This document shows positions 610 through 32,546 of a stretch of DNA of 34,587 bases, piece after piece; within the stretch, counting starts at the first letter, position 1, and each line of letters opens with the position of its first letter. The DNA is from Bacteroidota bacterium (lineage in GTDB: Bacteria > Bacteroidota > Bacteroidia > UKL13-3): the NCBI GenBank assembly GCA_027491355.1, contig JAIXWI010000015.1, positions 1 to 34,587 of the forward strand, in the 5' to 3' direction. A model generated the notes under the pieces. The model was given only the letters and a program-made list of their open reading frames with translations. It did no database searches and was not told where the DNA came from. Position numbers and translations under genes: made by a program.

Positions 610-2481
610 CTATTGATACATTCGCCATTTAATCCCTAATTTAAAAACCCGAGTAGGGAGTGGGTAATGAGGGCTTGCATAAAATCCTCCTTGAATCAAA
701 TCCATGTTGGCATGTTCCAATTTGGCAAACAAAACTGCTTTTTTAACCTGTCCGCAGATAAACAAATCAACCAATGGATAATTACCAATGAGTGTATTGT
801 TTTGAATATAGAAGGTTTTACTAACAGGATTCCAATTGTTTCCATAATAAGCAGTATTGTACCAAAAATCTATTCCTGCCTGAATTAATAAAACTTTTTT
901 GAAGATTCGACCATTCAAATACCACCTGCCTTTAGCTGCAAAATCTGGTATTTGAATCACGTTGTTATTACTTTGTTGGAGCAATATACTTTGCTCTAAA
1001 AATAAAATTCCCAATTGAAAAGTTTTAGTTATTTCAATGTTGTTCACTGAAATGACTTTGTTGTTTTGAACTGGTTTATTGAACTGGTTTACATAAACCC
1101 AATTGTTTAATAGGAAAGATTGGATTTGAATAGAAAAATTATGTCTGAAACCAGTAGTTTGGATACCTGCGAAAAGCTTGCTAACCTGCATCTGTTTCAG
1201 AGAATATTCCCAGCTAAATGCATTGCTATAAAAACGCATGAACTGTTCGTTTGGTCTATAGGCCAGTTGTTCTAATCCTGCTTTAACTGATTGTCCAAAT
1301 AAATTCAAAGTCATGTCCCCTTTTAATTTGAAATCTCCCAAATTGTAACCCAATACATTTAATTCAGTATTGCCTGAAAAGCCGATGTCGTTTTTAGCAT
1401 TTGCCCGGCGTTCAATGCTACCATCTATAATTACATTGTAACCATTTTGCGAAAAACCATGTTGGTTCCATTCAAAAATTTCTTGCGTCAACCCAATTTC
1501 CGAAAAATAATTTTTCCTAAAAAAACCACCGTTTATTCTATTGCGAAGGGTACTTGATTGCATTGAATCACTGAATTCAAAAGTCGAACCACTCAATGCC
1601 GGGAAAAGTGTCGCACTTGAGTCTCCTGCAAGATTATCAAAGAAAAAACCATCTTTTTTATATTGAATGCTATGTGAGATGTATGCACTAGGTTCAATGC
1701 ATTTAAAACTATCTTCACCCTGTTGGATGAAACTTTTTTTACCCAAATAATAAAATTGTCTGGTATAAAAATCATATGATTTGAACCTACTTTGTGCACC
1801 TTTTAATTGAACTGCAGCAGATTTATTCGTTCCTCTTAGTGTTTCAAATATGGAGTCGCTGATAATGCCTCCATTTTCATCGTGGACGCCCATATTCCAA
1901 TTCAAACTGGAAAGTATCCGGTATCTGTTGTTTTTACTTAAATAGCTGCCAAATACTTGTGTAAAATACCCACTGGTAAATTGTCGCATGTAATTTCCTA
2001 AATTCAAAATTCTAGAGTAATCAACACCAATATTGATTCTTGGGCTTATGTTGACAGTAAATTTGGTATCTAAATTGATCAATGAATTTGGCCCTTGAGC
2101 ATAATTAAAATCAACTGTAGGTATTTTTGTTTGGTAATAATTGGTTTGATTGGCAAATTTATAATACAACCAATATGGGTTGTTGTTAAACTGAAATCCT
2201 ATGTTTTTAGGAACATCAAAAGCTAAATTTCTTGTTGGGCTTAATTGAAATCCAAAATCTTGAAAGGCAATTAAATTTCTGTATCCTGCATGAAACTGCT
2301 CTGTTTTAACCAAACTGGTATCTTCGGCTTCATATCCAAGACCTCTGCATAGTTTGTACTCTGATTGTTTATTGGTTAACTGTTTGGCAGCTTTAAATGA
2401 TATAAAATCTGGGTGTTGAGCCCTTATTTGAAAGGTAGTTAAAAATAACAAGAACCACAACAAGATTTTTTTGTTGGGCAC
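610..2481 (-). CDS. Putative outer-membrane porin (Porin_10/DUF4289-like)
   Basis: About 623 residues. A classical signal peptide (PNKKILLWFLLFLTTF, then QIRAQ) is followed by a protein rich in aromatic and amphipathic beta segments, with no TonB plug. The C-terminus (HYPLPTRVFKLGIKWRMYQ) has the alternating pattern and near-terminal aromatic residues of an outer-membrane barrel and resembles the Bacteroidota 'putative porin' family, whose members are about 600-700 residues. I start it at a GTG (2481-2479), one base after the TAG of the upstream gene. The longer frame from a TTG at 2514 would overlap that gene by 32 bases and put 11 polar residues before the signal peptide. Last gene of a four-gene unit with two secreted proteins upstream. 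Substrate unknown; the family assignment is by recognition, not by a search. Confidence 0.72.
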   Translation of the reverse strand: MPNKKILLWFLLFLTTFQIRAQHPDFISFKAAKQLTNKQSEYKLCRGLGYEAEDTSLVKTEQFHAGYRNLIAFQDFGFQLSPTRNLAFDVPKNIGFQFNNNPYWLYYKFANQTNYYQTKIPTVDFNYAQGPNSLINLDTKFTVNISPRINIGVDYSRILNLGNYMRQFTSGYFTQVFGSYLSKNNRYRILSSLNWNMGVHDENGGIISDSIFETLRGTNKSAAVQLKGAQSRFKSYDFYTRQFYYLGKKSFIQQGEDSFKCIEPSAYISHSIQYKKDGFFFDNLAGDSSATLFPALSGSTFEFSDSMQSSTLRNRINGGFFRKNYFSEIGLTQEIFEWNQHGFSQNGYNVIIDGSIERRANAKNDIGFSGNTELNVLGYNLGDFKLKGDMTLNLFGQSVKAGLEQLAYRPNEQFMRFYSNAFSWEYSLKQMQVSKLFAGIQTTGFRHNFSIQIQSFLLNNWVYVNQFNKPVQNNKVISVNNIEITKTFQLGILFLEQSILLQQSNNNVIQIPDFAAKGRWYLNGRIFKKVLLIQAGIDFWYNTAYYGNNWNPVSKTFYIQNNTLIGNYPLVDLFICGQVKKAVLFAKLEHANMDLIQGGFYASPHYPLPTRVFKLGIKWRMYQ

Positions 2482-2482
2482 A

Positions 2483-3889
2483 CTATTGGAATTTAATGAG
2501 TTTACGAACTTCAATTTGGTTTTCGGTTTTCAATTTCAAAATGAATTGATTGCTAACAAAGGCACTCAAATCCAATTCAAAAGTAGTTTGGAACACTTGT
2601 TTTTGCAACAAACTTTTACCTTCAATGTCAAACAATTCCAGTTCAACTGAGTTGAAAGTATGATTATTGAACTCCAAATTAACGATTCCATTGCTTGGAT
2701 TTGGAAAAACCAATACTTCATTTGCGATCTTATTTTTATTGATACCCGTAATTGCAGGATCAGGTTTTAAAACAAAAAGACCTTCGCCCATATCTAAAAT
2801 TGCAATGTTGCCAGATTTAAAGTAGGGGTGAACTCCCCAACAACCTTTGTAACCTTCATATGATAAGGGTGGCCAATTTGATGAATGGAAGTATGCTACT
2901 GGATATATATCCAAAGGATTGGTAAGGTCAAAAACATACAATCCATCATGGTAATAAGAAACATAAGCAAAATTGCCAACATACCATGCATTATGTGCTG
3001 TAGCACCCGAATTACTTTGAAATGAATTGACGAATTTAGGATTTTTAACATCGGTTAAATCATAATATTTAATGGATAAACCACTTGGGATTTCATCAGT
3101 AAAAATCATTTTTTTTCCTGTTTTATCTAAGCAACTGCTGTGATTATAGCCATTTTGAGGGTATTGAGAAATGACACTGATTAAATTGGGTTCAGCAGCA
3201 TTTCTTACATCATAGATATACAAACCAGCGTACTCAGCAGAACAATAGATGGTATCGTTTCTCGCATACAGTTCATGTATGGTTTTAAAAGCCGCGCTGC
3301 CATCTGGCATTTTTGGAGACGTGATGCTCCCAATTTTTACAGGTTCAGCTGGATTCACTATAGATACAATGTCAACTGCACCAACTGATCCATTGTTGTA
3401 TCTATTGGTACACATATACAACCTGCTACTTAGCGAATCAATAAAAATGCTATGGGTATTGTGTGCCAAGCTATCACTTTCATATACCAAATGGACTGAA
3501 TCGGGTAGGTATTGTAAGTCAAAAATTTGTAGTTTACCTCTGTTTTTATTGTCACTGACACAGTATACATAATGGCTGTAACATTCAAAATCACGGTTTA
3601 CCATACTTGAACAAGCGCCATATTTTACAGTTACTACTTTGGGGGCATTGGCTTCACTGATATCAAAAAAATAGATACTATCGGCGCTTCCAGCAATGAC
3701 ATATTCTTTGTTGTTCTGTAAATCTGAATAACCTGTTAAATCATTCCAAATTTGGTAACCATCGTTTTTATTCAAGCTTGTATCATTCCAGTGACCAAGT
3801 AATTTTAATCCCATGCTTTGTTGGGCGAATAAGTTGTTGTAAAGAATAACAACCAATACAATGCTTAAAAACGAGAATGGCTTTTTCAA
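2483..3889 (-). CDS. Secreted choice-of-anchor B (LVIVD-repeat) protein with T9SS sorting domain, paralog 1
   Basis: 468 residues. A signal peptide ends near residue 22 (LYNNLFAQ). The body, about 30-385, has repeating blades such as SIYFFDIS, GLYIYDVRN and GLYVFDLTN, as in LVIVD/choice-of-anchor B proteins, which are predicted beta-propellers. Residues 392-468 begin VFPNPSNG and form a type A T9SS C-terminal sorting domain, so the protein should cross the outer membrane and be anchored or released at the surface. The start is a TTG at 3889, one base after the TGA of the upstream gene. An in-frame stop at 3904-3902 and the immediately following signal peptide leave no better start. It is clearly homologous along its length to the next gene upstream, so the pair is a tandem duplication. 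Ligand and function unknown. Confidence 0.85.
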   Translation of the reverse strand: MKKPFSFLSIVLVVILYNNLFAQQSMGLKLLGHWNDTSLNKNDGYQIWNDLTGYSDLQNNKEYVIAGSADSIYFFDISEANAPKVVTVKYGACSSMVNRDFECYSHYVYCVSDNKNRGKLQIFDLQYLPDSVHLVYESDSLAHNTHSIFIDSLSSRLYMCTNRYNNGSVGAVDIVSIVNPAEPVKIGSITSPKMPDGSAAFKTIHELYARNDTIYCSAEYAGLYIYDVRNAAEPNLISVISQYPQNGYNHSSCLDKTGKKMIFTDEIPSGLSIKYYDLTDVKNPKFVNSFQSNSGATAHNAWYVGNFAYVSYYHDGLYVFDLTNPLDIYPVAYFHSSNWPPLSYEGYKGCWGVHPYFKSGNIAILDMGEGLFVLKPDPAITGINKNKIANEVLVFPNPSNGIVNLEFNNHTFNSVELELFDIEGKSLLQKQVFQTTFELDLSAFVSNQFILKLKTENQIEVRKLIKFQ

Positions 3890-3890
3890 A

Positions 3891-5282
3891 TCAAGGCTGT
3901 TTTATGAATGATTGGTGAAAATTCAACCGATTAGATTTCAAATACAATACGTAGCTACCTGTTTTCAAATCTGTAATGTCAATTTTAGATAAAGTATTGA
4001 ATGTTCCTTTTAAAACTAAAACGCCCAAATTGTTATAGATTTCATAATAATCAAAATACTCAAAAGTATGAACATTTAATTCATTAGCAGCGGGGTTAGG
4101 GTAAACTTGAATTTTGGGATCATCCTTGTAGACAAGGTTTATTCCACAAAATTGACTATCCACTTTCAATACATAAATGCCATTTGTTAGATCACTTGCC
4201 AATATAATTTTGCTTGGTAAATAGGGATAAATGCCCCAACAACCTTTGTATCCTCCATAAATTTCTGGTTCAATTGGGTGGGTATCATACCAAGCTACTT
4301 TTTGTGGATCGTAAGGGTTTTTGATGTCATAAATTACAAAACCATCGTGATAGGAAGAAACATATGCAAAATCACCTAACCAGTATGCATTATGAGACAT
4401 GGCTTGATCAGAGGAGTTGAAACTACTTACAAATTTAGGATTGGTATAATTGCTGATGTCAAAAATTTTTATATCTAGTGATCTGTCTTCATCCGTAAAC
4501 ATGATGTATTTTCCAGTTTTATCTAGCCAAGAACTGTGGTTGTATCCTTGTTCTGGATAGGATGTAATACTGCCTAAAATTTGTTGATTTTGCGCATCTT
4601 TCAGTTTAAAAAAATAAAGACCATTGTACTCAGCACTTAAAAAACAAGTATCATTTCTAGCATACATTTCATGCACTTTATTAAACAAAAATCCGCCGTT
4701 TGGTTTAATTGGCACAGCCAGTTTAAAGAGTAGAGTAGGAGCCTCTGGTTTTTCTAATGACAAAACATCCATTGCAGAAAAGCCAACAGGTAAAGTGTTT
4801 GAACACATGTATAACCTTTTTAAAACACTGTCAATAAAAATTGTATGAGTGAATTTTCCTAATTTAGAACTGGCATATACTTCTTGAACCGAATCAGGTA
4901 AATACTGTAAGTCGAAAATTTGAAGCCTTCCATCTCCATTTGCTTGGTCTGATACGCAGTAAACATAGTGGCTGAAAGTTTCAAAATCTCTGTTTTTTGC
5001 TTGAATTGATCTACCACTTTTTACTTGTATCAATTTCAATTCTGTTGGATTGCTCACATCAAAAAAATAAATTGAATCGGTAGTGCCACAAATGGCATAT
5101 TCTTTTTTTCGAATGGGATCATACCAACCTGTCAGGTCGTTCCAAATATCTGTCCCATCAACTTTTGGTAAGTCTGGATTGTTGTAGTGGGACAATTTAA
5201 TTACCCCTTGAGAAATAGACTGAGAGTGAGTCATAAAACCCAAGACAAAAGTAAAAAAAACAAAAAAGCTGAATCTATACAT
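3891..5282 (-). CDS. Secreted choice-of-anchor B (LVIVD-repeat) protein with T9SS sorting domain, paralog 2
   Basis: 463 residues from the ATG at 5282, which shares its A with the TGA of the upstream gene (TGATG); a TTG three bases earlier is less likely. A signal peptide (YRFSFFVFFTFVLGFMTHSQ) precedes propeller-like repeats (SIYFFDVSN, GLYFFKLKD, GFVIYDIKN). Residues 391-463 begin IQVYPNPAAN and form a T9SS sorting domain. It shares with paralog 1 the blocks IWNDLTG, FSHYVYCVSD (YSHYVYCVSD there), LQIFDLQYLPDSV, HEMYARND (HELYARND) and YKGCWG. Both probably act on the cell surface. Overlapping or one-base junctions on each side argue for translational coupling in one transcript. Confidence 0.85.
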   Translation of the reverse strand: MYRFSFFVFFTFVLGFMTHSQSISQGVIKLSHYNNPDLPKVDGTDIWNDLTGWYDPIRKKEYAICGTTDSIYFFDVSNPTELKLIQVKSGRSIQAKNRDFETFSHYVYCVSDQANGDGRLQIFDLQYLPDSVQEVYASSKLGKFTHTIFIDSVLKRLYMCSNTLPVGFSAMDVLSLEKPEAPTLLFKLAVPIKPNGGFLFNKVHEMYARNDTCFLSAEYNGLYFFKLKDAQNQQILGSITSYPEQGYNHSSWLDKTGKYIMFTDEDRSLDIKIFDISNYTNPKFVSSFNSSDQAMSHNAYWLGDFAYVSSYHDGFVIYDIKNPYDPQKVAWYDTHPIEPEIYGGYKGCWGIYPYLPSKIILASDLTNGIYVLKVDSQFCGINLVYKDDPKIQVYPNPAANELNVHTFEYFDYYEIYNNLGVLVLKGTFNTLSKIDITDLKTGSYVLYLKSNRLNFHQSFIKQP

Positions 5283-6403
5283 CAAATTTCAATTTTATAA
5301 GTATGGTGTACCTTTGTTGTTTGAGCACCTAAAGCTTTGAACAATGCATGCATTTTAGGATTAAAGTCGCCAATCCAAGCTAATTCAGCAGAAACAAATT
5401 GAGGTTTCTTTTGAATGGCTTCATAAAATTTCATGATCAAACCAGTTTCTAATCCAAGGTTCTGATAGGCAGGAATTACTCCAAAAACAATTCCTCTTAA
5501 ACGGTTGATTGTTCCAAAGTATTTGTACCAAATAAATTTCAATTTTCCTATCCAATTTAGTTTGCCATTTACATGTTTGAAAATTTGGTTTACATCAATC
5601 ACATTCACATAAAATCCTGCTGGTTCATCATTGGCATATACAAACCAAATAGCTTCCTCCATTAAAATTGGTTTCAAAGACCGCAAAGTTGTTTCAATCC
5701 TATTCTTGGTCATAGGAACAAAATCTGGCCTATTGGCCCAGGCAAGGTTGTATATGTGAATAAAATCTGAAGCAAACTTTTCGAGTTCACTGATTTTAAA
5801 GTGCGCATAATGATAATTGGAGTTTTGGAATACCCTTGTTGCTAGTTTTTCAAATCTTTCTCGGTTAAAATCTGAGTACCTGATTTCAGATGTTGTTTGC
5901 TCGGTATGTAATTTAAAACCATACGCTAGAAAGAACTTTTCATAATAAGGAAAGTTGAAGTTTTCCTGATAGGAAGGATTCTTGAAGCCTTTAACCATCA
6001 AACCCCAAAACTTATCTTTTTCTCCAAAATTAATTGGACCATCAATAGCTGAACAACCCTGTTTTTTTAGCCAATCTTTTGCGGTATCAAACAGTAAAAA
6101 AGCAGCTTTTTCATTTTCAATACACTCAAAGAAACCAATTCCTCCTGTCTTATTTTGTTGGTTTGTTTGATGAAAATCAGAGTAAAAGGCAGCAATTCTT
6201 CCAATAATTTGTTCTTGTTCGTCCAATAAGATCCAACGGATGGCGTTTCCATTTTGAAATGCACTGTTGTGTTCGATTGAAAAAATTTCATTGATATCAT
6301 TGTCCAAAGGGCATACCCATTCAGGTTCTTTGGCATATAACTTTCTTGGTAAATCTAAAAATAAAGTATTTTGAAGATTGGTATGTACTGTTTCAATTTT
6401 CAT
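5282..6403 (-). CDS. GNAT-like N-acetyltransferase family protein
   Basis: 373 residues, starting at the ATG at 6403 (MKIETVHTNLQ). The frame is open 21 codons further upstream, but that stretch looks non-coding. The N-terminal half contains GRIAAFYSDFHQ, GGIGFFECIEN and AIDGPINFGEKDKFWGL, and the C-terminal half contains a second acyltransferase-like part (FYVNVIDVN, GVIPAYQNLGLETGLIMKFYEAI). This resembles the large cytoplasmic GNAT-type proteins related to YghO. No signal peptide or membrane segment is seen. It is the first gene of the unit that continues with two secreted propellers and a porin. Acceptor substrate unknown; a role in modifying an envelope precursor is only inferred from context. 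Confidence 0.7.
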   Translation of the reverse strand: MKIETVHTNLQNTLFLDLPRKLYAKEPEWVCPLDNDINEIFSIEHNSAFQNGNAIRWILLDEQEQIIGRIAAFYSDFHQTNQQNKTGGIGFFECIENEKAAFLLFDTAKDWLKKQGCSAIDGPINFGEKDKFWGLMVKGFKNPSYQENFNFPYYEKFFLAYGFKLHTEQTTSEIRYSDFNRERFEKLATRVFQNSNYHYAHFKISELEKFASDFIHIYNLAWANRPDFVPMTKNRIETTLRSLKPILMEEAIWFVYANDEPAGFYVNVIDVNQIFKHVNGKLNWIGKLKFIWYKYFGTINRLRGIVFGVIPAYQNLGLETGLIMKFYEAIQKKPQFVSAELAWIGDFNPKMHALFKALGAQTTKVHHTYKIEI

Positions 6404-6481: not shown

Positions 6482-6500
6482 TGACTTAATTTTTAAGTCA
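6482..6500 (+). promoter_or_regulatory. Palindrome overlapping the redoxin start codon (possible operator)
   Basis: TGACTTAA (6482-6489), three T bases, then TTAAGTCA (6493-6500) form a perfect 8-bp inverted repeat. Its last base is the A of the ATG of the redoxin gene. It sits at the start site predicted from the promoter at 6450-6480 and in the intergenic region shared with the divergent minus-strand unit starting at 6403. It could be a repressor site, or an mRNA hairpin that hides the start codon. Confidence 0.45.
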
Positions 6501-7039
6501 TGTTAAACATTGGAGACAAATTGCCAGCATTCAGCCTTAAAGGCTATGACAATAAAATTTATACCCATTATGACTATGCCGACAAATATGCCCTAGCTGT
6601 AATTTTTACCTGTAACAGTTCTCCTATATCAAAGGCATACGCTAAAAGGTTGGTCAATTTATTCGAGAAATATGAAGGTGACAATTTAGGAATTGTTGGT
6701 ATCAATTCTAATGATCCCATACAGTCACCAGAAGATGATTTTGAACACATGCAGTTAGTTGCAGAAAAATTAGGTTTAAATAAATTACATTTCTTGTTTT
6801 TACAAGACAATGAGCAAAAAGCTGCACATTCTTTTGGTGCAAAAGTAAATCCTGAAGTGTTTTTATTTAATAGAAAGCGTGAATTGGTATACAAAGGAGC
6901 CATCGATGATGCATGGGAAAATGAAGCAATGGCTACAATGGTTTATTTAGAAGATGCTATTGAAGAAGCTTTGGATGGTATGGAAATAGATTATCCTGAA
7001 ATACCTGCTTTTGGAACCCCAATAATTTGGAAAAAGTAA
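6500..7039 (+). CDS. Thioredoxin-fold redoxin (AhpC/TSA-like) lacking the second active-site cysteine
   Basis: 179 residues, no signal peptide, cytoplasmic. The N-terminal GDKLPAFSLKGYDNK and the later GAKVNPEVFLFNRKRELVYKG are typical of the redoxin/AhpC-TSA group of thioredoxin-like proteins. The family motif usually reads FTCNHCP. Here it is FTCNSSP with only Cys38, and the C-terminal region that commonly carries a GC pair reads FGTPIIWKK. So this is probably a one-cysteine enzyme or a non-canonical member. It is the first gene of a plus-strand run with the SDR gene only 2 bases downstream. Exact substrate not recognisable. Confidence 0.75.
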   Translation: MLNIGDKLPAFSLKGYDNKIYTHYDYADKYALAVIFTCNSSPISKAYAKRLVNLFEKYEGDNLGIVGINSNDPIQSPEDDFEHMQLVAEKLGLNKLHFLFLQDNEQKAAHSFGAKVNPEVFLFNRKRELVYKGAIDDAWENEAMATMVYLEDAIEEALDGMEIDYPEIPAFGTPIIWKK

Positions 7040-7041
7040 AG

Positions 7042-7851
7042 GTGAGCCTAAAAAACCAAGTCGTACTTATTACAGGAGCATCTTCAGGTATAGGAGAAGC
7101 CACAGCATATGCATTTGCAAAAAAAGGTTACAATTTAGTTTTGGCCGCAAGGTCTGTTCAGGCCTTGGAACAAGTTAAATCTAATTGCATTCAAATTGGT
7201 GCTAAATGTGAAATCATAGCCACAGATGTTGCAAATGAAGCTGCTTGTAAGCATTTAATTGAGCAAACCATTCAATATTTTGGTACCATACACGTACTCA
7301 TCAACAATGCTGGCTTGTCTATGCGTGCTTCATTAGCTGATGCCTCATTAGCGGTATTGCACCAACTCATGGATGTCAATTTTTGGGGCACTGTTTATTG
7401 TACCAAATACGCACTTCCTTATGTTTTAAAAGAAAAAGGGTCAATTATTGGTATCAGTTCAGTGGCTGGAATTAAAGGCTTGCCGGGTAGAACAGGGTAT
7501 GCTGCCTCTAAGTTTGCGATGAATGGTTTTTTAGAATCGCTTAGAATTGAAAATAAACACAAACATTTACATGTTGGTATATTGGCACCTGGTTATACTG
7601 CTTCAAACATTCGCAATGTCGCACTCAATGCAAAAGGCAATAAACAACAAGAAAGCCCATTAAAAGAGTCGGAATTGATGCAGCCTGAAACAGTAGCTAT
7701 GCACATCACTCGTATGGTTATGAAACGAACCAATTTCCAAATTTTAACCACTCAAGGTAAATTGGTTTATTGGCTCAATAAATTTCTTCCAAGCTTGGTT
7801 GATAGTTTAATTTACAAAAAAGTTTCAAAAGAAAAAGACAGTCCTATCTAG
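7042..7851 (+). CDS. Short-chain dehydrogenase/reductase (SDR family)
   Basis: 269 residues from a GTG at 7042-7044, which follows the redoxin stop by two bases and has AAAGG just upstream. The frame is open to a TTG at 7027, but that would overlap the redoxin gene. Rossmann motif TGASSGIG at 11-18, NNAG at 88-91, catalytic Ser139/Ser140 (GISSVAG), Tyr153 and Lys157 (YAASK). These are the classical NAD(P)-dependent SDR landmarks, and the length is close to family norm. A hydrophobic C-terminal part (LVYWLNKFLPSLV) may touch a membrane, as in SDR7-like enzymes. Substrate unknown. argS begins 9 bases after its stop. Confidence 0.88.
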   Translation: MSLKNQVVLITGASSGIGEATAYAFAKKGYNLVLAARSVQALEQVKSNCIQIGAKCEIIATDVANEAACKHLIEQTIQYFGTIHVLINNAGLSMRASLADASLAVLHQLMDVNFWGTVYCTKYALPYVLKEKGSIIGISSVAGIKGLPGRTGYAASKFAMNGFLESLRIENKHKHLHVGILAPGYTASNIRNVALNAKGNKQQESPLKESELMQPETVAMHITRMVMKRTNFQILTTQGKLVYWLNKFLPSLVDSLIYKKVSKEKDSPI

Positions 7852-7860
7852 ATTTTTAAC

Positions 7861-9645
7861 ATGAAAAATATACAAGAATCAATAAAAGAAATACTTGCAA
7901 ACGCAGTTAATCAATTGTACCAAATAGATTGGAAGCCTATGCAAATTGTTATAGAAGCTACCAGTGCAGATTTTGAAGGCGATTTTACCTTTGTTGTATT
8001 TCCTTTACTCAAAATTTCTAAAAAAGGGCCTGAACAAACAGCCAATGAAATTGCTGAATACTTGAGAAAAGATACTACTGTTATTGCATCCATAGAAGTT
8101 GTTAAAGGATTTGTCAATTTAACTGTTCAAACCTCCTACTGGACAAATTTTACACTTTTAAATGCACAAAATATTAGTTTTGGGTATTCCACACCTCAAT
8201 CCAAAGAAAATGTTTTGGTTGAATACTCTTCACCCAATACCAATAAACCCCTACACCTTGGACATATTCGGAACAATTTATTGGGATTCTCAGTCATACA
8301 AATTTTAAAAGCCAATGGTTACCATGTAAAATCTTGTAATTTAATCAATGACCGTGGCATTCATATTTGTAAATCTATGTATGCATGGTTACAACAAGGA
8401 AATGGAGAAACACCAGCTTCAGCTCAAATGAAAGGCGATCATTTGGTTGGAAAGTATTATGTGGCTTTTGAAAAACAACACAAATTAGAAAAAGAAGCAC
8501 TCATACAAAATGGATTGGACGAAGAAACCGCTTCCAAACAAACCAAATCAATGCTTCAAGCCCAAGAACTACTTAGAAAATGGGAGGCCGGAGACCAAGC
8601 TACAATTGATGTATGGAAAACAATGAATGGATGGGTATATGAGGGTTTCAATGCAACTTATAAACAATTAGGAGTTGAATTTGACCAGTATTATTACGAA
8701 TCAGAAACGTATTTATTGGGAAAAAAATTAGTAGAAGAAGGGCTCCAACAAGGTAGCTTTTTTAAAAAAGAGAATGGATCTGTATGGGTTGATTTAACAG
8801 CCGATGGATTGGATCAGAAATTGTTACTAAGAGCAGATGGAACTTCTGTATACATTACACAAGACATGGGAACTGCAGCTCTCAAATACAACGATTTTAA
8901 ATACGACAAATCAATATATGTTGTAGGCAATGAGCAAGATTATCACTTTAAAGTTTTGCAATTGATTTTAGCCAAAACCAATAAGCCCTATGCAAGTGGT
9001 ATTTACCATTTGAGTTATGGAATGGTAGAGTTACCAGAAGGTAAGATGAAAAGTAGGGAGGGTACAGTGGTAGATGCAGACGACTTGATGCAAGATATGT
9101 TTGACAATGCAAAACAAATTACAACCGATTTAGGTAAAACAGAAGGTTTGAGTTTAGATGAGCAAAATCAATTGTTTCAAACAATTGGATTGGGTGCACT
9201 TAAATACTTTTTATTAAAAGTAGACCCAAAAAAGAAAATGATGTTCAATCCAAAAGAATCCATCGACTTTCAAGGTAATACCGGACCATTTATTCAATAT
9301 ACCCATGCACGAATAAAATCTGTTTTAAGAAATGCCAAAGACACAAGTTTTGAATTTGATTCAAATCAAGTAAAACTAAGTGCTTTTGAAAAAAACATGG
9401 TAAAGGGCTTGCATCAATTTCCAGGTATTGTGGATGAAGCAGCCCGAGACTTAAGTCCAGGAGTCATTTGTAATTATTGTTATGATTTGGCAAAGTTGTT
9501 CAATCAATTGTATCACGAACATTCAATCCTTAAAGAACAAGACGAAAATCAACGCAAATTCAGATTGATACTCTGCATGTTTACAGCTCAGGTTTTAAAT
9601 AGAGCAGGTGCCTTGCTTGGCATTCAAATGCCTGAAAGAATGTAA
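7861..9645 (+). CDS. argS: Arginine--tRNA ligase
   Basis: 594 residues, the usual length for ArgRS; charges tRNA-Arg with arginine in the cytoplasm. An N-terminal Add-1-like domain (about 1-110) precedes the class I catalytic core, with SSPNTNKPLHLGHIRNN around the HIGH-type motif HLGH (132-135). The KMSKS counterpart is GKMKSREGT (394-402). The anticodon-binding helical domain includes QYTHARIKSVLRN, and the protein ends in the typical RAGALLGIQMPERM. It lies within a compact plus-strand run; the downstream lipoprotein ATG begins one base after the TAA. Nothing is missing. Confidence 0.97.
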   Translation: MKNIQESIKEILANAVNQLYQIDWKPMQIVIEATSADFEGDFTFVVFPLLKISKKGPEQTANEIAEYLRKDTTVIASIEVVKGFVNLTVQTSYWTNFTLLNAQNISFGYSTPQSKENVLVEYSSPNTNKPLHLGHIRNNLLGFSVIQILKANGYHVKSCNLINDRGIHICKSMYAWLQQGNGETPASAQMKGDHLVGKYYVAFEKQHKLEKEALIQNGLDEETASKQTKSMLQAQELLRKWEAGDQATIDVWKTMNGWVYEGFNATYKQLGVEFDQYYYESETYLLGKKLVEEGLQQGSFFKKENGSVWVDLTADGLDQKLLLRADGTSVYITQDMGTAALKYNDFKYDKSIYVVGNEQDYHFKVLQLILAKTNKPYASGIYHLSYGMVELPEGKMKSREGTVVDADDLMQDMFDNAKQITTDLGKTEGLSLDEQNQLFQTIGLGALKYFLLKVDPKKKMMFNPKESIDFQGNTGPFIQYTHARIKSVLRNAKDTSFEFDSNQVKLSAFEKNMVKGLHQFPGIVDEAARDLSPGVICNYCYDLAKLFNQLYHEHSILKEQDENQRKFRLILCMFTAQVLNRAGALLGIQMPERM

Positions 9646-20252: not shown

Positions 20253-21623
20253 TTAAAACAAACTTGTAATCATTGAAGGCATAATCCCAATCAATAAAGA
20301 AACGATTAGGCATAACCACATCACTAATTGATTAGTCAACGAAATTTCTATTTTGGTTTCATTAGCAGGTTTAGCATACATGGCAATTACTACTTTCATA
20401 TAGTAATAAATTCCAATCATTGAGCTGATAATACCAATGAGGACAAGGTAAAAGTGGCCATTTTGAAGGGCTTCACTGAAAATATAGAATTTACCAAAAA
20501 AACCAGCAAAAGGCGGAATGCCAGCTAAACTTAACATTGTTGAAGTGAGGCAAGCAGCTAAAATCGGGTTCTTCTTTCCTAGTCCATTGAATGCACTGAT
20601 GGTTTCTGATCCTGTGGACTTAAAAACAGCCATTGCTATAGAAAAAGCTGCGATGGTAGACAAAGCATAGCCAATTCCGTAATAAAGTATTGCAGTACTT
20701 GGAAAGGCTGCAGCGCCAACTAAGCCTATGAGCAGGTAACCTGCATGGGAAATTCCTGAATAAGCCATCAATCTTTTGAAATTCTCTTGAGCAAGTGCAG
20801 AGAGATTTCCTGTAAAAAGCGATACAATGGCAACGAGAATGATTAACCATTCAAATTTAATCGGAATCAAATATCCGAAAACATGTAAAAACTTATAAAA
20901 TGCAGCAAAACCAACAACCTTTACCAAAGTACTCATGAACGCAGTAATGATACTTGGCGCACCTTCGTATACATCAGGTGCCCAAAAATGAAAAGGGGCA
21001 GCTGAAACTTTAAAGAATAGTGCAAACAAAACCAATAATAAACCAGTCAAGAACATTGGAGAAACCTCAGTACCATTTGCATAATCTCCCAAGCTATTTA
21101 AATCAAAACTTTGGGTTGCCCCATAAATCAAGGCAATTCCAAATAACAAGAATCCTGAAGCAAACGAACCCATTAAAAAGTATTTGAAACCAGCTTCATT
21201 TGATTTGGCATCAAATCTTTTACTACCAGAAAGGGCATACAATGAAATACTTAATGTTTCAATACCTATAAAAAATAAAACTAAATTGGCATATCCCAAC
21301 ATCATTTGCGCTCCACACAAAACAAATGTCATGATGGTCATGTAATCACTGATATGGTGTGCCTCGTCGGCGTAATACTCTGATGCCAACATCGCTATCA
21401 AGAGGGTAATGAAAATTGCTAAAGCATTGAAAGCAACAGTAAAATTACTTGTTTCTAGCATATTCCCCATGTAAGAACCTGGCTGGTTCCAATCATGTAT
21501 GTTGATACCAAAAATCAAACTTAAACCCAATATCAAAACAGGGCTGATCCATTTGCGAAGTTTAAGCACTTCTAAAACCATCAATCCAAATCCAAGAACA
21601 GAAGTATAAATAAGTGTATTCAC
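20253..21623 (-). CDS. nuoN: NADH-quinone oxidoreductase subunit N
   Basis: 456 residues, about 13-14 membrane helices; one of three antiporter-like proton-pumping subunits of complex I. The conserved membrane glutamate is Glu122 in FFIGIETLSISLYAL, and typical blocks are FHFWAPDVYEGAPSIITAFM, RLMAYSGISHAGYLLIGL and LAGIPPFAGFFGKFYIF. It begins with GTG (21623-21621), 7 bases after the nuoM stop; no ATG gives a better fit. Last gene of the nuo operon, and nothing is missing. Confidence 0.96.
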   Translation of the reverse strand: MNTLIYTSVLGFGLMVLEVLKLRKWISPVLILGLSLIFGINIHDWNQPGSYMGNMLETSNFTVAFNALAIFITLLIAMLASEYYADEAHHISDYMTIMTFVLCGAQMMLGYANLVLFFIGIETLSISLYALSGSKRFDAKSNEAGFKYFLMGSFASGFLLFGIALIYGATQSFDLNSLGDYANGTEVSPMFLTGLLLVLFALFFKVSAAPFHFWAPDVYEGAPSIITAFMSTLVKVVGFAAFYKFLHVFGYLIPIKFEWLIILVAIVSLFTGNLSALAQENFKRLMAYSGISHAGYLLIGLVGAAAFPSTAILYYGIGYALSTIAAFSIAMAVFKSTGSETISAFNGLGKKNPILAACLTSTMLSLAGIPPFAGFFGKFYIFSEALQNGHFYLVLIGIISSMIGIYYYMKVVIAMYAKPANETKIEISLTNQLVMWLCLIVSLLIGIMPSMITSLF

Positions 21624-21630
21624 AGTGATT

Positions 21631-23070
21631 TTAAATTAACTTTAATAATTGGTTTACAGTTGGTTGAGTTAAATTGGTAACCATACCAGGAAAAACACCT
21701 AATATGAAAATCAATGCGATGATTCCAATTAACACAACTTTTTCATTTAAATGGAGTTTTTCCATTGGTAGGGCATCTTCTGGTACTGCTCCTAACATCA
21801 CCTCTTGGAACATTTTTAGCATGTAAACCGCACCTAAAATGATACTGGTTCCAGCAACGGCCCCTAACCATACATTGTACTTAAACAGGCTGTATAGTAA
21901 CATAAATTCACCAACAAATCCATTTGTTAATGGAAGGGCTATAGCGCCAAGTAAAACAATCATGAAGAAAGTGGCAAACCAAGGGGATTGAAGACGAATG
22001 CCCCCTAATTGATGTATTTGTAAGGTGCCTTTTCTGTTTAAAATGATATCCGCACAGAAGAACAAGCCAACTACATTGATTCCGTGTGCTAACATTTGTA
22101 CCAATGCACCTTGAATTCCCTCAAAACTCAACGTAAATGTACCAGCAGCAATTAATCCAACGTGTGCGATAGATGAATATGCAAATAATTTCTTGAGATC
22201 TCTCTGCATAATGGCAATGATAGAAGCATAAACAATACCGATAACAGAGAGTGTGATAACTATTGATTGCCATTCGTGCATCCCTGCCGGAAAAATAGGC
22301 AATAACCATCTCAATAAACTGTAAGTACCCATTTTCAGCATGATACCAGATAGCAACATGGTACCCTGAGTAGGAGCGGATTTGTAGGTGTCTGGTTGCC
22401 AAGTATGAAATGGAATAATTGGTATTTTAATAGCGAATGCAATAAAAAACAACCAAAACAACCAAGTTTGGTTACAAGAGCAGGTATGTTGGTTTGATAA
22501 AACACTCCAGTCTAATGAATGATTAGGTGAACCCATGTACAAGTATATAAACCCAAAAAGCATTAACAAGCTTCCTGCTAAGGTGTAGATGAAAAATTTC
22601 AAAGTAACTTTTGGACTGTTTTCATCTCCCCAATTGAATGCCATGAAATAAATTGGAATCAAGGCCAATTCCCAGAATATGTAATAAACAAAACCATCTA
22701 ATGCCATGAATACGCCAAGTAATGCAAAGTGCATAAAAGAGAGCAATGCATAAAAAGTAGCTACTCTTTTTGTAGTCCTATTGAAGCCGGATAGTATAAT
22801 AAATGGAATTAATAAATTGGTTAAAACTACCATTAGTAAACCAATTCCGTCAATTCCAAAATGTAGGTTAATTTGAGGCTTATTCACCCAAGGCATTTGA
22901 AATTCAAATGCTTCAGCTCCATTTTGATGAAATACTTGAAAAGCATAAATGGTAAAAAAAAGTTCAATTATACTGAAAACCAAAGCCAAAGGTTTAGCAG
23001 CTTTTTCATTTGCAAATAGCAACAAGATAGCTGCTAAAAGCGGTATAAATAATAATTCTAGACTCAGCAT
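21631..23070 (-). CDS. nuoM: NADH-quinone oxidoreductase subunit M
   Basis: 479 residues, about 14 membrane helices, a proton-pumping antiporter-like subunit of complex I. The key glutamate is Glu134 in FWELALIPIYFMAFNWG. Other family blocks are PIIPFHTWQPDTYKSAPTQG and KKLFAYSSIAHVGLIAAG. One cysteine-rich periplasmic or loop segment (HTCSCNQTW) is unusual. The ATG shares its A with the nuoL stop (TAATG). Confidence 0.97.
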   Translation of the reverse strand: MLSLELLFIPLLAAILLLFANEKAAKPLALVFSIIELFFTIYAFQVFHQNGAEAFEFQMPWVNKPQINLHFGIDGIGLLMVVLTNLLIPFIILSGFNRTTKRVATFYALLSFMHFALLGVFMALDGFVYYIFWELALIPIYFMAFNWGDENSPKVTLKFFIYTLAGSLLMLFGFIYLYMGSPNHSLDWSVLSNQHTCSCNQTWLFWLFFIAFAIKIPIIPFHTWQPDTYKSAPTQGTMLLSGIMLKMGTYSLLRWLLPIFPAGMHEWQSIVITLSVIGIVYASIIAIMQRDLKKLFAYSSIAHVGLIAAGTFTLSFEGIQGALVQMLAHGINVVGLFFCADIILNRKGTLQIHQLGGIRLQSPWFATFFMIVLLGAIALPLTNGFVGEFMLLYSLFKYNVWLGAVAGTSIILGAVYMLKMFQEVMLGAVPEDALPMEKLHLNEKVVLIGIIALIFILGVFPGMVTNLTQPTVNQLLKLI

Positions 23071-24992
23071 TATAAAATAATTTGAATGAACATAACAATC
23101 ACCATACTTAAAACCATTGCGATGAGATAAAAACCAGTGCTACCAGTTTGAATCAACCTGTAAAGTCTTCCAATGGCATCAACAAGAATAGCAGTTAAAT
23201 TGACCACCATATCTATGATTAACTTATCAACTAAAACCAGTAATAAATCACTGAGTATTACAACAGGGTTAACAATTACTTTATGATAGAACTCATCTAC
23301 ATAGAATTTATTTGCTACAACTTTGCTGATACCAGTTAATTCTGATTCGTTTTCTGGAATTTGTTGTTTTTTCAAATACAATGTGAATGCATAATAAATA
23401 CTTACCAATGCAGCCAATGTTGCAATACCCATCAATAACCATTCCTGTTCATGCGAAAGGGGTGGAGTTTCAAGTGTTACCTGTTTTGATGAATTGAAAA
23501 TAGGAGCTAAAAATGCCATCAACTGATGGGTTGAACTGAATACAGAAGGCAAACCAAAAAATCCACCAAATGCAGACAATACTGCCAAAATCATTAAAGG
23601 TAATGTCATTGAAATTGGCGATTCATGTAAATGCTGAGCCTGTTCTTGAGTGCCTCTGAATGAACCATAAAACACTAAAAACAACAACCTGAACATGTAA
23701 AATGCAGTAATCATTGAACTGATACTTAACAATGCCCAAACCAACAAGTTGTGTTCAAATGCTTTTGCCAATATTTCATCTTTTGAGAAAAATCCTGCAA
23801 AAGGAAAAATACCAGAAATGGCAAGTGTAGCAATCAAGAATGTTACAAATGTTGTTTTAATAGATTTACTCAAGCCACCCATCTTTCTGATGTCTTGTTC
23901 GCCACCCATTGCATGAATGACACTTCCTGCACCTAAAAACAACAATGCTTTGAAAAAGGCATGAGTCATTACATGAAACATACTACTTTCAAAAGCACCA
24001 AGTCCAATTGCAGCAAACATTAAACCCAATTGCGACACTGTTGAATAGGCCAATACTTTTTTTATGTCATTCTGTTTGATGCCAATAATTGCTGCAAACA
24101 ATGAAGTGGCAACACCTACAATTAAAATAACATGCAAAGTAAAGGGAGCCAAAGCAAACAATAAATTAGAACGGCAAATCATGTAAATACCAGCAGTTAC
24201 CATTGTTGCAGCATGTATCAATGCCGAAACGGGGGTAGGACCAGCCATTGCATCTGGTAACCATGTATACAAAGGCAGTTGCGCACTTTTTCCTGTGGCA
24301 CCAATGAAGAGCATGAGCGTAATAAAAATCAATATGGGTGCATCTGGTTCAAAGCCAGCCAATTGATTTTGCACATCCATAAAGTCCAATGTTCCAAAGT
24401 GAAAGATTAACGCAAAAATGCCAATTAGAAATCCAAGATCTCCAATCCTGTTCATCACAAAAGCTTTCTTGGCAGCATTGTTGTATTCAGGATTTTTAAA
24501 CCAAAAGCCAATTAGCAAATATGAGCACAAACCAACACCTTCCCAACCAATAAACATGACCGCATAATTATTTCCCATCACGAGTAATAGCATGAAGAAG
24601 ATGAAAAGGTTCAAGTAAGAAAAAAACCTTGAAAAACCTTCATCATGGTGCATATATCCTATAGAGTAAATATGAATCAAGAAGCCAATGCCAGTGACAA
24701 TAAGCAACATGATCAAGCTCAGTTGGTCAATCAAGAAGCCAAAATCAATTTGTAAATCACCCGCGGCAATCCACTTGAAGATACTGAAATTTAGCTGTTG
24801 ATCTCCTTCAAGACCCACAAATAAGTTAATGCTACATAAAAACGAACCCAATATTGCCATGCTGGCTATCCAGCCTGACATAAAGCCCAATTTTTTTCCA
24901 AACAACGACACGATTAAAAAGCCTAACAATGGGAAAAGGGGAATCATCATTGCTGGTGTAATCATTGTCAATAAATTCATTGTATTGTTCAT
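23070..24992 (-). CDS. nuoL: NADH-quinone oxidoreductase subunit L
   Basis: 640 residues, about 16 membrane helices plus the C-terminal lateral helix region, slightly longer than the E. coli protein. Family blocks: MFIGWEGVGLCSYLLIGFWF with Glu151, MAGPTPVSALIHAATMVTAG, KKVLAYSTVSQLGLMFAA and FPFAGFFSKDEIL. It is the distal proton-pumping arm of complex I. The ATG at 24992 gives MNNTMNLL; a second ATG four codons later is possible. It follows nuoK by 11 bases. Confidence 0.97.
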   Translation of the reverse strand: MNNTMNLLTMITPAMMIPLFPLLGFLIVSLFGKKLGFMSGWIASMAILGSFLCSINLFVGLEGDQQLNFSIFKWIAAGDLQIDFGFLIDQLSLIMLLIVTGIGFLIHIYSIGYMHHDEGFSRFFSYLNLFIFFMLLLVMGNNYAVMFIGWEGVGLCSYLLIGFWFKNPEYNNAAKKAFVMNRIGDLGFLIGIFALIFHFGTLDFMDVQNQLAGFEPDAPILIFITLMLFIGATGKSAQLPLYTWLPDAMAGPTPVSALIHAATMVTAGIYMICRSNLLFALAPFTLHVILIVGVATSLFAAIIGIKQNDIKKVLAYSTVSQLGLMFAAIGLGAFESSMFHVMTHAFFKALLFLGAGSVIHAMGGEQDIRKMGGLSKSIKTTFVTFLIATLAISGIFPFAGFFSKDEILAKAFEHNLLVWALLSISSMITAFYMFRLLFLVFYGSFRGTQEQAQHLHESPISMTLPLMILAVLSAFGGFFGLPSVFSSTHQLMAFLAPIFNSSKQVTLETPPLSHEQEWLLMGIATLAALVSIYYAFTLYLKKQQIPENESELTGISKVVANKFYVDEFYHKVIVNPVVILSDLLLVLVDKLIIDMVVNLTAILVDAIGRLYRLIQTGSTGFYLIAMVLSMVIVMFIQIIL

Positions 24993-25003
24993 GAACTGTT
25001 AAA

Positions 25004-25327
25004 TTACCATTTTAATTTGTTGAGTGATTGGATATCGATACTGCCGATATTTCTATAAATACTTACCATCAGCGCCAAACCAACTGCTACTTCAGCGGCT
25101 GCCACAACCATGATAAAAAACACAAAAGTTTGACCATCAGTATTGCCAGTATATGCTGAAAAACTAACAAGTAACAAGTTGACAGCATTTAGCATCAATT
25201 CAATGCACATGAGAATAATCAAAGCATTTTTTCTGAATAAAACACCCATAACACCTATTGAAAACAATAGGCAACTTAAAAATAAGTACCAGTTGGTTGT
25301 TGATTCGGGATTTGTAATTGGGTTCAT
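25004..25327 (-). CDS. nuoK: NADH-quinone oxidoreductase subunit K
   Basis: 107 residues, three membrane helices, part of the proton path of the complex I membrane arm. The two conserved membrane glutamates are Glu43 ([16 protein letters not shown]) and Glu79 ([13 protein letters not shown]), corresponding to Glu36 and Glu72 of E. coli NuoK. The N-terminus is about seven residues longer than the enterobacterial protein. The ATG overlaps the nuoJ stop (TAATG). Confidence 0.97.
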
Positions 25328-25827
25328 TATTTGATTTCTTTTTTAGCTAACAAAACGGCTGATATCATAGCAGATACAAACAATACAGACGAAATTTCAA
25401 AAGGAAGGAGGTAGTCTGTAAAAAGTTTCATTCCAATGTCTTCAGCATTGCCAATGTTTAAATAGGCTGGAGCTTGGTAATTTGCCAGTGTACTTGATTT
25501 TACTGAAGCAACTATTACCAAAAATAACAAGCCACCTGTAAATACAGCCATCAATTTAGTAAGGTTGAATTTATGAACGCTCACTTCTTGGTTCAAATTC
25601 AACAGCATTACTGTAAATAGCATCAATACCATAATAGCTCCTGCATAAACGATGATATGAATGATAGCTAAAAACTGAGCATTGAGCATGATATAGTGGC
25701 CTGCAATTGTAAAAAAGCAAACAATCAAAGACAATACACTGTAAATTGGACTTCTGGAGAAAACCACAAACAATGCTGAAATAACAGACATTGCGGACAA
25801 TAAATAAAACAAGATAGTTGATTCCAT
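25327..25827 (-). CDS. nuoJ: NADH-quinone oxidoreductase subunit J
   Basis: 166 residues, five membrane helices. The block [20 protein letters not shown] contains the pi-bulge helix of family ND6/NuoJ, and [13 protein letters not shown] and [21 protein letters not shown] are equally typical. Membrane-arm subunit of complex I. It starts 6 bases after the nuoI stop. Confidence 0.95.
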
Positions 25828-25833
25828 GTCTGA

Positions 25834-26373
25834 TTAGTTTACAATTGAATAGTCCTTTTTCCTTTTGCTGATATCGATTCGTTGGTCAATTGGTTCAACC
25901 AAAACATCCTTACCGAAAACAAAATTATTTCTATTATAGTCTGAGGGTACAATCCTGTCTGTTAAATAAATTGCATCTTTTGGGCAAGCCTCTTCACACA
26001 AACCACAATAAATACACCTTAACATATTGATTTCATATTTGGCAGCATACTTTTCTTCTCTGTAGAGCATTTCTTCCCCTTTTTTTCTTTCTGCAGCATC
26101 CATTGTAATAGCTTCAGCAGGGCAAGAAACTGCACACAAGCCACATGCAGTACAATTTTCTCTACCTTGTTCGTCTCTTTTTAAAACGTGCATCCCTCTG
26201 TAAACAGGCGCAAATGGCCTTGTAACTTCTGGATAGCGCAAGGTTGCTTTCTTTTTAAATAAGTGTTTAATTGTAATGATCAGTCCCTGAAAAATTGCTG
26301 GAAGGTAAAGCTTCTCAATCCAGTTCATTTCTTTGTGAACAACAACTTTTGATCTATTGGTTAATTGGTTCAT
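25834..26373 (-). CDS. nuoI: NADH-quinone oxidoreductase subunit I (two [4Fe-4S] ferredoxin)
   Basis: 179 residues. Two CxxCxxCxxxC clusters are intact: Cys74, 77, 80 and 84 (CTACGLCAVSC) and Cys120, 123, 126 and 130 (CIYCGLCEEAC), the N6a/N6b centres that carry electrons to NuoB. The amphipathic N-terminal helix (LYLPAIFQGLIITIKHLFKK) lies on the membrane. It starts 10 bases after the nuoH stop. Confidence 0.97.
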   Translation of the reverse strand: MNQLTNRSKVVVHKEMNWIEKLYLPAIFQGLIITIKHLFKKKATLRYPEVTRPFAPVYRGMHVLKRDEQGRENCTACGLCAVSCPAEAITMDAAERKKGEEMLYREEKYAAKYEINMLRCIYCGLCEEACPKDAIYLTDRIVPSDYNRNNFVFGKDVLVEPIDQRIDISKRKKDYSIVN

Positions 26374-26383
26374 TTGAGTACGA

Positions 26384-27415
26384 TTATAAATTAAAAAAAG
26401 TAATCACACCGCCAGTAATAAGCATATTAGCTATTGACAATGGCAATAAAACTTGCCATCCTAAGCGCATCAATTGGTCATACCTGAATCTTGGTATAGT
26501 CCATCTCACCCACATGAAGAAGAAAATGAAAAAGAAAACTTTTGTAAACAAAGCTCCTATAGAAATGATGCTGACTACATTAGCGGGTAAATGAGCAGAT
26601 AAGTATGCCAAGCCTGGGAATTGGTATCCGCCGAAATACAAACAAGAAATCACTGTTGAAGAAATAAACATATTGATGTATTCAGCAAATAGGAACAAGC
26701 CTAGCTTCATTGAAGAATATTCGGTATGGTAACCTCCAATCAATTCAGATTCAGATTCGGGTAAATCAAATGGTGTTCGGTTTGCCTCAGCAAAAGCACA
26801 AATTAGAAATATCAGAAAGCCCAATGGCTGGTAAAATACATTCCAGTTCATTCCTTTTTGAGACTCCACTATGTGTGAAAGGCTCAGAGATCCATCTGAA
26901 ATTAACAAAATTGATATAATGCTCATACCCATTGCTAATTCATAAGAAATCATTTGACTAGAAGCGCGAATGGCTCCCAATAATGCATATTTGTTGTTTG
27001 AGGCCCAGCCACCAATCATGATTCCATATACACCAACTGAAAGTACACCCATAATGTACAAAACACCAATATTGATGTCGGCAACTTGAAGCGCATATTT
27101 AGTACCATCAAATTCTAAAGGCAATCCCCACGGAATAACTGCACTGGTCATCAAAGCTGTTAGCATGAAAATACATGGACCTAGAATAAATAACCATCTA
27201 TTGGAGTGATTGGGAATGATTTCTTCTTTTAAAAACATTTTTACACCGTCGGCAATAGGTTGAAGTAAGCCAAAAGGACCAGCTCTGTCAGGACCAATTC
27301 TATCTTGTAAAAATGCAGCAACTTTTCTTTCTGCATAAGTGGAGTAGGCGGCAATTCCTAAACTGATCAGGAACAATACAAGCACCAATATGGTTTTGAA
27401 CAAAATTATTTCCAT
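26384..27415 (-). CDS. nuoH: NADH-quinone oxidoreductase subunit H
   Basis: 343 residues, eight membrane helices; forms the quinone chamber and links the peripheral and membrane arms. Signatures are AAFLQDRIGPDRAGPFGLLQ and AEANRTPFDLPESESELIGG followed by GYHTEYSSMK, plus the Arg-rich FFFMWVRWTIPRFRYDQLM. The ATG overlaps the nuoG stop (TAATG). Confidence 0.97.
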   Translation of the reverse strand: MEIILFKTILVLVLFLISLGIAAYSTYAERKVAAFLQDRIGPDRAGPFGLLQPIADGVKMFLKEEIIPNHSNRWLFILGPCIFMLTALMTSAVIPWGLPLEFDGTKYALQVADINIGVLYIMGVLSVGVYGIMIGGWASNNKYALLGAIRASSQMISYELAMGMSIISILLISDGSLSLSHIVESQKGMNWNVFYQPLGFLIFLICAFAEANRTPFDLPESESELIGGYHTEYSSMKLGLFLFAEYINMFISSTVISCLYFGGYQFPGLAYLSAHLPANVVSIISIGALFTKVFFFIFFFMWVRWTIPRFRYDQLMRLGWQVLLPLSIANMLITGGVITFFNL

Positions 27416-28395: not shown

Positions 28396-28415
28396 TTTTT
28401 TAATCAGTTTGGAAA

Positions 28416-29726: not shown

Positions 29727-29728
29727 GT

Positions 29729-30271
29729 TTAGTATTGATTTACTTCGACCTGATCTAAATAGGTTTTCCTTGTGTTTTCTGCCTTTAATTTAGCAATTAA
29801 TTCATCTACCTTTTCAGAAGTAAGGTTTTCATGAAATTGAGCACCACACATTAACATTGGCGCAGTACCACATGAACCCAAACATTCAACTGTTTTAAGG
29901 GTAAATAGTCCATCAGGTGTTGTCTCACCTTCTTTAATGCCTAATTTATTTTCTAGATGTGCAACAATTTCGTTTGCACCTCTTAACCAACAAGAACTCG
30001 TTCTACAAACTTCTAGCAAACATTTACCTACAGGTTTTAAATTGTACATACTGTAAAATGATGCTACTTCATATACTTCAATTGGCTGAATATCAAGTAA
30101 GCTTGCAACATAATCCATCACCTCCGGACTCAACCAGCCGTCAAACTCTGCTTGTGCCAAATGTAAAACTGGCAATAAAGCTGATTTTTGTTTTCCAGCA
30201 GGATAATGACCCTTCATTTTCTGAATGAGTTCTAATACATTTTCGCTGAATTTAATTTCTTTTTTCTCCAT
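29729..30271 (-). CDS. nuoE: NADH-quinone oxidoreductase subunit E
   Basis: 180 residues with a helical N-terminus and a thioredoxin-like [2Fe-2S] domain. The N1a ligands are Cys89 and Cys94 (CRTSSC) and Cys130 and Cys134 (CLGSC). It pairs with NuoF in the NADH-dehydrogenase module. It follows nuoD by 11 bases. Confidence 0.96.
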   Translation of the reverse strand: MEKKEIKFSENVLELIQKMKGHYPAGKQKSALLPVLHLAQAEFDGWLSPEVMDYVASLLDIQPIEVYEVASFYSMYNLKPVGKCLLEVCRTSSCWLRGANEIVAHLENKLGIKEGETTPDGLFTLKTVECLGSCGTAPMLMCGAQFHENLTSEKVDELIAKLKAENTRKTYLDQVEVNQY

Positions 30272-30282
30272 GTTTGATATGC

Positions 30283-31485: not shown

Positions 31486-31489
31486 AGTA

Positions 31490-32535: not shown

Positions 32536-32546
32536 TGATTGATTGA

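Follow-up and report, generated by a model that had tools for sequence, protein, structure and literature searches.

The window analyzed here is a stretch of 34,587 nucleotides from a Bacteroidota bacterium (contig JAIXWI010000015.1 of assembly GCA_027491355.1), and the subject of this study is a run of four minus-strand genes in it, encoding a GNAT-like protein, two propellers and a Porin_10 barrel. The comparison of these genes with their relatives revealed that the propeller-porin pair is an old partnership in the class Bacteroidia and that the GNAT gene joined this pair only recently. Furthermore, the propellers carry conserved His and Glu residues that partly align with those of a phosphotriesterase from Sphingobium. 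The best explanation as a whole, held tentatively and at less than an even chance, is that a metal-dependent, esterase-like propeller exported by the type 9 secretion system (T9SS) serves the barrel, in a block that came from an older gene row and now lies behind the GNAT gene. The features concerned are the following:

610–2481, minus strand: Porin_10 (PF14121) outer-membrane barrel, 623 amino acids (aa), GTG start
2483–3889, minus strand: propeller 2, choice-of-anchor B (TIGR04312) with a T9SS type A domain, 468 aa, TTG start
2495–2710, minus strand: T9SS type A sorting domain of propeller 2, residues 394–465
3891–5282, minus strand: propeller 1, choice-of-anchor B (TIGR04312), seven-bladed, with a T9SS type A domain, 463 aa
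3915–4106, minus strand: T9SS type A sorting domain of propeller 1, residues 393–456
5282–6403, minus strand: GNAT-like protein, 373 aa, ATG start, a late neighbour outside the conserved core

The four minus-strand genes and their close junctions, as given in a preliminary description of this DNA, were confirmed by the coordinates and by the start and stop codons. The TGA of the GNAT gene overlaps the ATG of propeller 1 (TGATG at 5284–5280), the TGA of propeller 1 is followed after one base by the TTG of propeller 2 (at 3889), and the TAG of propeller 2 is followed after one base by the GTG of the porin (at 2481). The four genes are probably translated as one unit. In a scan of the window, none of the three junctions carried a coding-strand site resembling a terminator; the three minus-strand sites found were located in the porin gene (1732), in the GNAT gene (5743) and beyond the porin stop (267). 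The sigma-70 scan was uninformative, with 15 promoter-like sites and thus fewer than the 29.0 of the shuffled sequences. The propeller-porin junction is more than chance, because the adjacency is conserved in relatives.

The porin matched PF14121 with an E-value of 2.7e-95 (320.8 bits against a Pfam cut-off of 27). Propellers 1 and 2, which are 43% identical, matched TIGR04312 at 176.7 and 175.7 bits (curated cut-off 100) and the sorting-domain models TIGR04183 (42.3 and 43.5 bits against 23) and PF18962 (45.9 and 45.5 bits against 27), and the Pfam family LVIVD exceeded its cut-off in propeller 1 only. The match of the GNAT protein to PF00583 was sub-threshold (19.6 bits against 20.7). Both propellers are predicted to be exported via the T9SS to the cell surface, since they combine a signal-like N-terminus with the sorting domain and the same genome encodes SprA of the T9SS translocon (SprA_N PF14349, 547.5 bits). 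One additional weak match to propeller 1 was found in this genome, covering its sorting-domain end.

Propeller 1, the GNAT protein and the porin were searched in the same 78 genomes, 47 from the family of the window (f1, its own genome included) and 31 from other families of the class. The propeller and the porin were each found in 46 of the 47 f1 genomes, and G030, which is 70% complete, showed neither. The two genes were adjacent and in the same order in 33 f1 genomes, representing 10 of the 14 genera; adjacency could not be determined in G030 and G036. Outside f1, the pair was observed in G138 (f36; domains checked by Pfam), in G226 and G260 (f67), and in G258 (f81). In the propeller tree, which left out loci of several genomes (e.g., G033, G037, G041, G044, and G045), the first and second copies of genera g1 and g3 formed separate groups with one exception, G034, and the doubling of the propeller is therefore older than the split of g1 and g3. 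At the locus of G034 (L106), the second propeller groups with the first copies, pointing to a renewed duplication or to gene conversion.

Some further features of these loci were recorded. In g6 (L067 2667–3194, also L068, L071, and L079), the gene before the propeller pair encodes not purine nucleoside phosphorylase (PNP) but a small protein containing a Kazal-type inhibitor domain. At L075, L077, L087, L092, and L101 (g4, g5, and g12), an ApaG-domain gene and a 177-aa gene stand before the propeller, which lies away from the porin. A Fe/Mn superoxide dismutase with an N-terminus that looks signal-like by eye lies shortly after the porin at several g3-type loci, e.g., L062 17576–18325.

The wider gene order was determined in a sample of 99 genomes of the class. 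LpxK (threshold 1e-15) was detected in 93 of them, PF14121 (1e-10) in 86, in single copy and in two cases as two pieces of one frame, and TIGR04312 (1e-25) in 59. LpxK belongs to lipid A and PNP to purine salvage, two unrelated functions. A gene was scored as linked when it lay on the same strand of the same contig and at most 4 kb downstream, and broken contigs were counted as misses. The propeller followed LpxK in 17 of the 57 genomes with both genes, from 12 families (14 genomes without f1); the porin followed LpxK in 14/82 genomes from 8 families (11 without f1), and the propeller in 7/48 (f1, f67, and f81; 3 without f1). The reverse order, porin then propeller, was not observed in any of the 99 genomes. 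Hence, the genes are unlinked in most genomes, yet the same order recurs in many families. The 17 LpxK-linked members of TIGR04312 have open frames of 458–504 aa and are of the short type, like those of the window; many other members reach about 800 aa.

A complete LpxK-PNP-propeller-porin row was found in f1, in genera g8 (L082) and g9 (L083 and L096), and other loci kept different parts of it. LpxK-PNP-propeller was observed at L113, L115, L117, L128, L143, L263, L264, L266, and L267, PNP-propeller at L123, LpxK-PNP-porin at L240, L242, L260, and L261, LpxK-porin at L142, L241, L245, and L250, PNP-porin at L244 and L248, and LpxK-propeller-porin at L257 and L258. At L259, PNP, propeller and porin are joined by 4-base overlaps at both junctions. 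In the genome of the window, LpxK and PNP lie on a different contig (L256), with neither propeller nor porin beside them. Pfam served to identify a single LpxK and a single PNP, the remaining ones being assigned by similarity clustering, which missed the porin of L249; gaps were measured from the longest open frame, so that larger negative gaps reflect the choice of start. Because the same order recurs across families that keep different parts, we infer an ancestral LpxK-PNP-propeller-porin row that was thinned differently in each family. At L262 and L265, an opposite-strand frame stands between LpxK and the next gene.

The GNAT gene showed a different distribution. It was present in 42 of the 47 f1 genomes (E 1e-10) and directly before the propeller in only 11 (4/4 of g1 and 7/7 of g3), which form one side of a branch of the porin tree with an SH-aLRT support of 99. 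This tree contained 45 of the 46 f1 porins (G041, a contig-end piece, was omitted) and 15 hand-picked rows from outside, and G036 carried the label of a pair in it, even though contig ends separate its two genes. In the other 36 f1 genomes the GNAT gene was not next to the propeller; five of these had no GNAT match at 1e-10, and G030 had no propeller. At 14 other f1 GNAT loci, a gene for AhpC was divergent to the GNAT gene in 10, accompanied by a short-chain dehydrogenase (SDR) gene in 9 and by ArgS in 5, which is the arrangement of the window:

6500–7039, plus strand: AhpC/TSA-like redoxin (Pfam), divergent partner of the GNAT gene
7027–7851, plus strand: SDR (Pfam), same divergent block
7861–9645, plus strand: arginyl-tRNA synthetase, ArgS (Pfam), divergent block, also at 5 of the 14 other f1 GNAT loci

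The remaining 4 loci, from genera g6 and g7, lacked the divergent AhpC arrangement. Neither propeller nor porin was found at any of these 14 loci or at 6 GNAT loci from other families, in stretches of about 6–14.5 kb. The gap between the GNAT and propeller genes in g3 reached 186 bases (L106). The preliminary description had joined all four families in this order into a possible surface device; the propeller-porin part of that proposal stood (33/47 f1 genomes), whereas its GNAT part did not (11/47, one clade). The GNAT protein was therefore rejected as a component on the basis of gene order, its gene lying elsewhere usually in the divergent AhpC block. A dedicated device made of all four proteins, for which the tight GNAT-propeller junction of g1 would speak, is very unlikely, and it already fails as an ancestral unit.

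To turn to the propeller itself, its model showed seven blades with a predicted local distance difference test (pLDDT) score of 88.7. Of the 135 rows aligned, 86 came from f1, 16 from class families other than f1 and 30 from loci of a search of the phylum, and the rest were L233, L251, and L252; the rows had been selected for their resemblance to the propeller profile, and some loci are represented twice. H146, H204, and H249 were present in 135/135 rows, as were D264 and E265; H297 occurred in 134, the remaining row having a gap, and R98 in 133. In the model, the four conserved histidines are located at or just before the start of the innermost strand (A) of blades 3–6, one per blade. The corresponding codons are:

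4845–4847, minus strand: His146, just before strand A of blade 3
4671–4673, minus strand: His204, just before strand A of blade 4
4536–4538, minus strand: His249, at the start of strand A of blade 5
4488–4490, minus strand: Glu265, just after strand B of blade 5, aligned with Glu407 of the phosphotriesterase
4392–4394, minus strand: His297, at the start of strand A of blade 6

The phosphotriesterase is the haloalkylphosphorus hydrolase of Sphingobium sp. TCM1 (5hrm/5ioj), and its structure 5hrm was the first match of the propeller 1 model in Foldseek (E 2.8e-13; best different protein 3.2e-10) and in VIA (Z 31.9, root-mean-square deviation 3.3, 342 residues aligned). A profile of 25 propeller domains searched against the PDB recovered 5hrm at 1.4e-5 and 5ioj at 3.2e-5, and the next sequence, other propellers included, at 1.2. 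Propeller 1 alone, searched against the PDB with phmmer, gave only a sorting-domain match and two chance-level rows. Relatives of the phosphotriesterase were taken from named plasmids. Profile comparison with hhalign gave probabilities of 97.3 and 98.0%, and its scores of 27.4 and 33.9 bits exceeded those of 1000 residue shuffles, which did not go beyond 1.9 bits. H258, H317, E318, and E407 of the phosphotriesterase aligned directly with H146, H204, E205, and E265 of the propeller, which places His in blade 3, His-Glu in blade 4 and Glu in blade 5 of both seven-bladed proteins, and the compared residues were invariant among three phosphotriesterase relatives, two of them 97% identical. According to its title, as cited in PMC11656708, the structure paper by Mabanglo et al. 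(2016) concerns a seven-bladed propeller with a binuclear site. The relatives L253 and L254 differ from the window propellers in that they did not match TIGR04312 (none; E 0.24) and showed no sorting-domain match in that scan. A 'TDIW' motif common to propeller 1 and the phosphotriesterase was dropped as it is missing from propeller 2 and L254. Metal sites like those of carotenoid oxygenases or N2O reductase were also considered; neither was among the best 50 matches listed of either fold search, which does not exclude them.

Of 148 genomes of the phylum, 38 contained the porin family PF14121, each in a single copy, and 36 of these 38 belonged to the class of the window. PF14121 was the only Pfam match of the porin at E 0.1, and NCBIfam gave none, so that no plug or TonB-receptor family was detected in these scans; phmmer with the porin alone against the PDB gave no match. 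The top fold matches of the porin model were BtuB-type barrels, and the BtuB1-BtuG1 complex (8blw) was found at rank 16. According to passages of PMC10404256, BtuG2 is a seven-bladed propeller that sits as a lid on a barrel of 22 strands with a plug, and a passage of PMC13142918 presents XusB as a seven-bladed surface propeller, a DUF4374 lipoprotein for iron-siderophores, which works with the XusA barrel. By analogy with these two Bacteroides systems, precedents from the same phylum in which a seven-bladed propeller accompanies a large outer-membrane barrel, a propeller-porin surface complex is plausible. The differences are that BtuG belongs to the lipoproteins and BtuB to the plugged, TonB-dependent transporters, whereas the window encodes T9SS-type propellers and a PF14121 barrel, and that DUF4374 was unmatched in the window proteins (Pfam). 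That the porin might be the BamG protein of the BAM complex of Bacteroidota was considered, the two being core barrels, and was set aside on the description of BamG in PMC12578637 as a 14-stranded FadL homologue, and not on a sequence comparison.

The explanation preferred here would read the window as two older units joined end to end, the GNAT gene with its divergent AhpC/SDR/ArgS block and the propeller-porin pair. This pair would derive from the ancestral LpxK-PNP-propeller-porin row, the propeller would have doubled in this lineage, and the propeller-propeller-porin block would have been placed behind the GNAT gene once, before the split of g1 and g3; order and tree are observed, and the direction of the move is the presumed part. 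After T9SS export, each propeller would act as a hydrolase that depends on a metal and most probably cleaves phosphate esters, which is expected because the conserved His and Glu residues of the innermost strands partly align with those of the phosphotriesterase. The large barrel, in which no plug was recognised, may import compounds bound or released by the propeller, and a purine nucleotide or nucleoside as substrate would be a guess from the PNP neighbour.

Several observations weigh against this explanation. The claim that the propellers are tied to the porin held for 33/47 f1 genomes and for four genomes from f36, f67, and f81, but not for the 12/47 f1 genomes (all of g4, g5, g6, and g12) or the 41/48 class-sample genomes (broken contigs included) in which the two genes lie apart. 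The phosphotriesterase link is distant, with 17% identity in the structure alignment, and WD40-type propellers reached Z 31.3 against 31.9 for 5hrm, a tie by the rule of the tool. The whole-protein profile value sums weak blades, none of which was significant (best single-stretch E 6.4), and a narrower propeller profile, A1, gave the phosphotriesterase at only 0.05. Moreover, H389-S390 lies 1 to 4 columns off H249-S250, a pairing that rests on blade number and the motif HS, and H475 lies at least 10 columns off H297, paired by blade number and the motif SH; the residues compared, H258, H317, H389, E407, and H475, include metal ligands of the phosphotriesterase. The blade 7 histidine (H545 of L253) faces I351, and E201, which presumably has a role in the phosphotriesterase, has no aligned acidic partner; since these two residues lack a counterpart, TIGR04312 was not assigned to the phosphotriesterase family. 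The conserved histidines could also be structural. As for the barrel, its model was weak (pLDDT 65.6), and its approximately 22 long strands were counted by eye.

It is possible but doubtful that LpxK, PNP, propeller and porin stand together merely by co-regulation or old synteny, sharing no joint function. The linkage of LpxK and PNP despite their unrelated functions, the retention of different subsets in different families, and the occurrence of the porin in 86 of the 99 class genomes and of the propeller family in 59 are consistent with such a row; against it, the genome of the window keeps its propellers and porin together away from LpxK-PNP, and the pair persists in 10 of the 14 f1 genera. 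An unlikely alternative is that the propellers bind a small ligand without cleavage and deliver it to the barrel, in the manner of BtuG with BtuB and XusB with XusA. The seven-bladed propellers of both systems and the BtuB-like fold matches of the porin model, 8blw among them, argue for this capture role, but BtuG and XusB are lipoproteins that work with TonB-dependent transporters, whereas T9SS sorting domains and a porin with no plug or TonB-receptor match were found here, and the invariant His and Glu residues would better suit catalysis or metal binding.

The preferred explanation can be extended, improbably in our estimate, to surface scavenging in Bacteroidia, in which a T9SS-anchored, metal-dependent propeller esterase would cleave a phosphate ester (e.g., a nucleotide) above a large plugless barrel and PNP would process the imported nucleoside. 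In open-licence full text, no paper was found naming PF14121, TIGR04312, Porin_10 or 'choice-of-anchor B', and none combining lpxK, purine nucleoside phosphorylase and porin; among the open-licence papers mentioning LVIVD, none was on phosphotriesterases, judging by titles and the openings of abstracts. Other names may be in use for PF14121 proteins, e.g., in 'putative porin' papers on Bacteroidetes.

Additionally, a 110-base repeat was observed at positions 1–110 and 374–483 of the window, downstream of the porin. It is present, whole or partial, at 27 places of the genome with 90–100% identity, several of them at contig ends. On the minus strand, positions 20253–32912 contain a run of open frames of 121, 187, 168, 405, 180, 436 ... 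640, 479, and 456 aa, which by frame sizes and order we take to resemble the nuoA-N operon of respiratory complex I.

The gene order described here gives the families PF14121 and TIGR04312 a common setting, LpxK-PNP-propeller-porin, and the propeller now has a concrete His/Glu site open to mutation. If the likeness to the phosphotriesterase holds, these propellers would be natural relatives of an enzyme acting on man-made organophosphates, and, should surface scavenging prove true, TIGR04312 would represent a natural enzyme family beside the flame-retardant-degrading phosphotriesterase.

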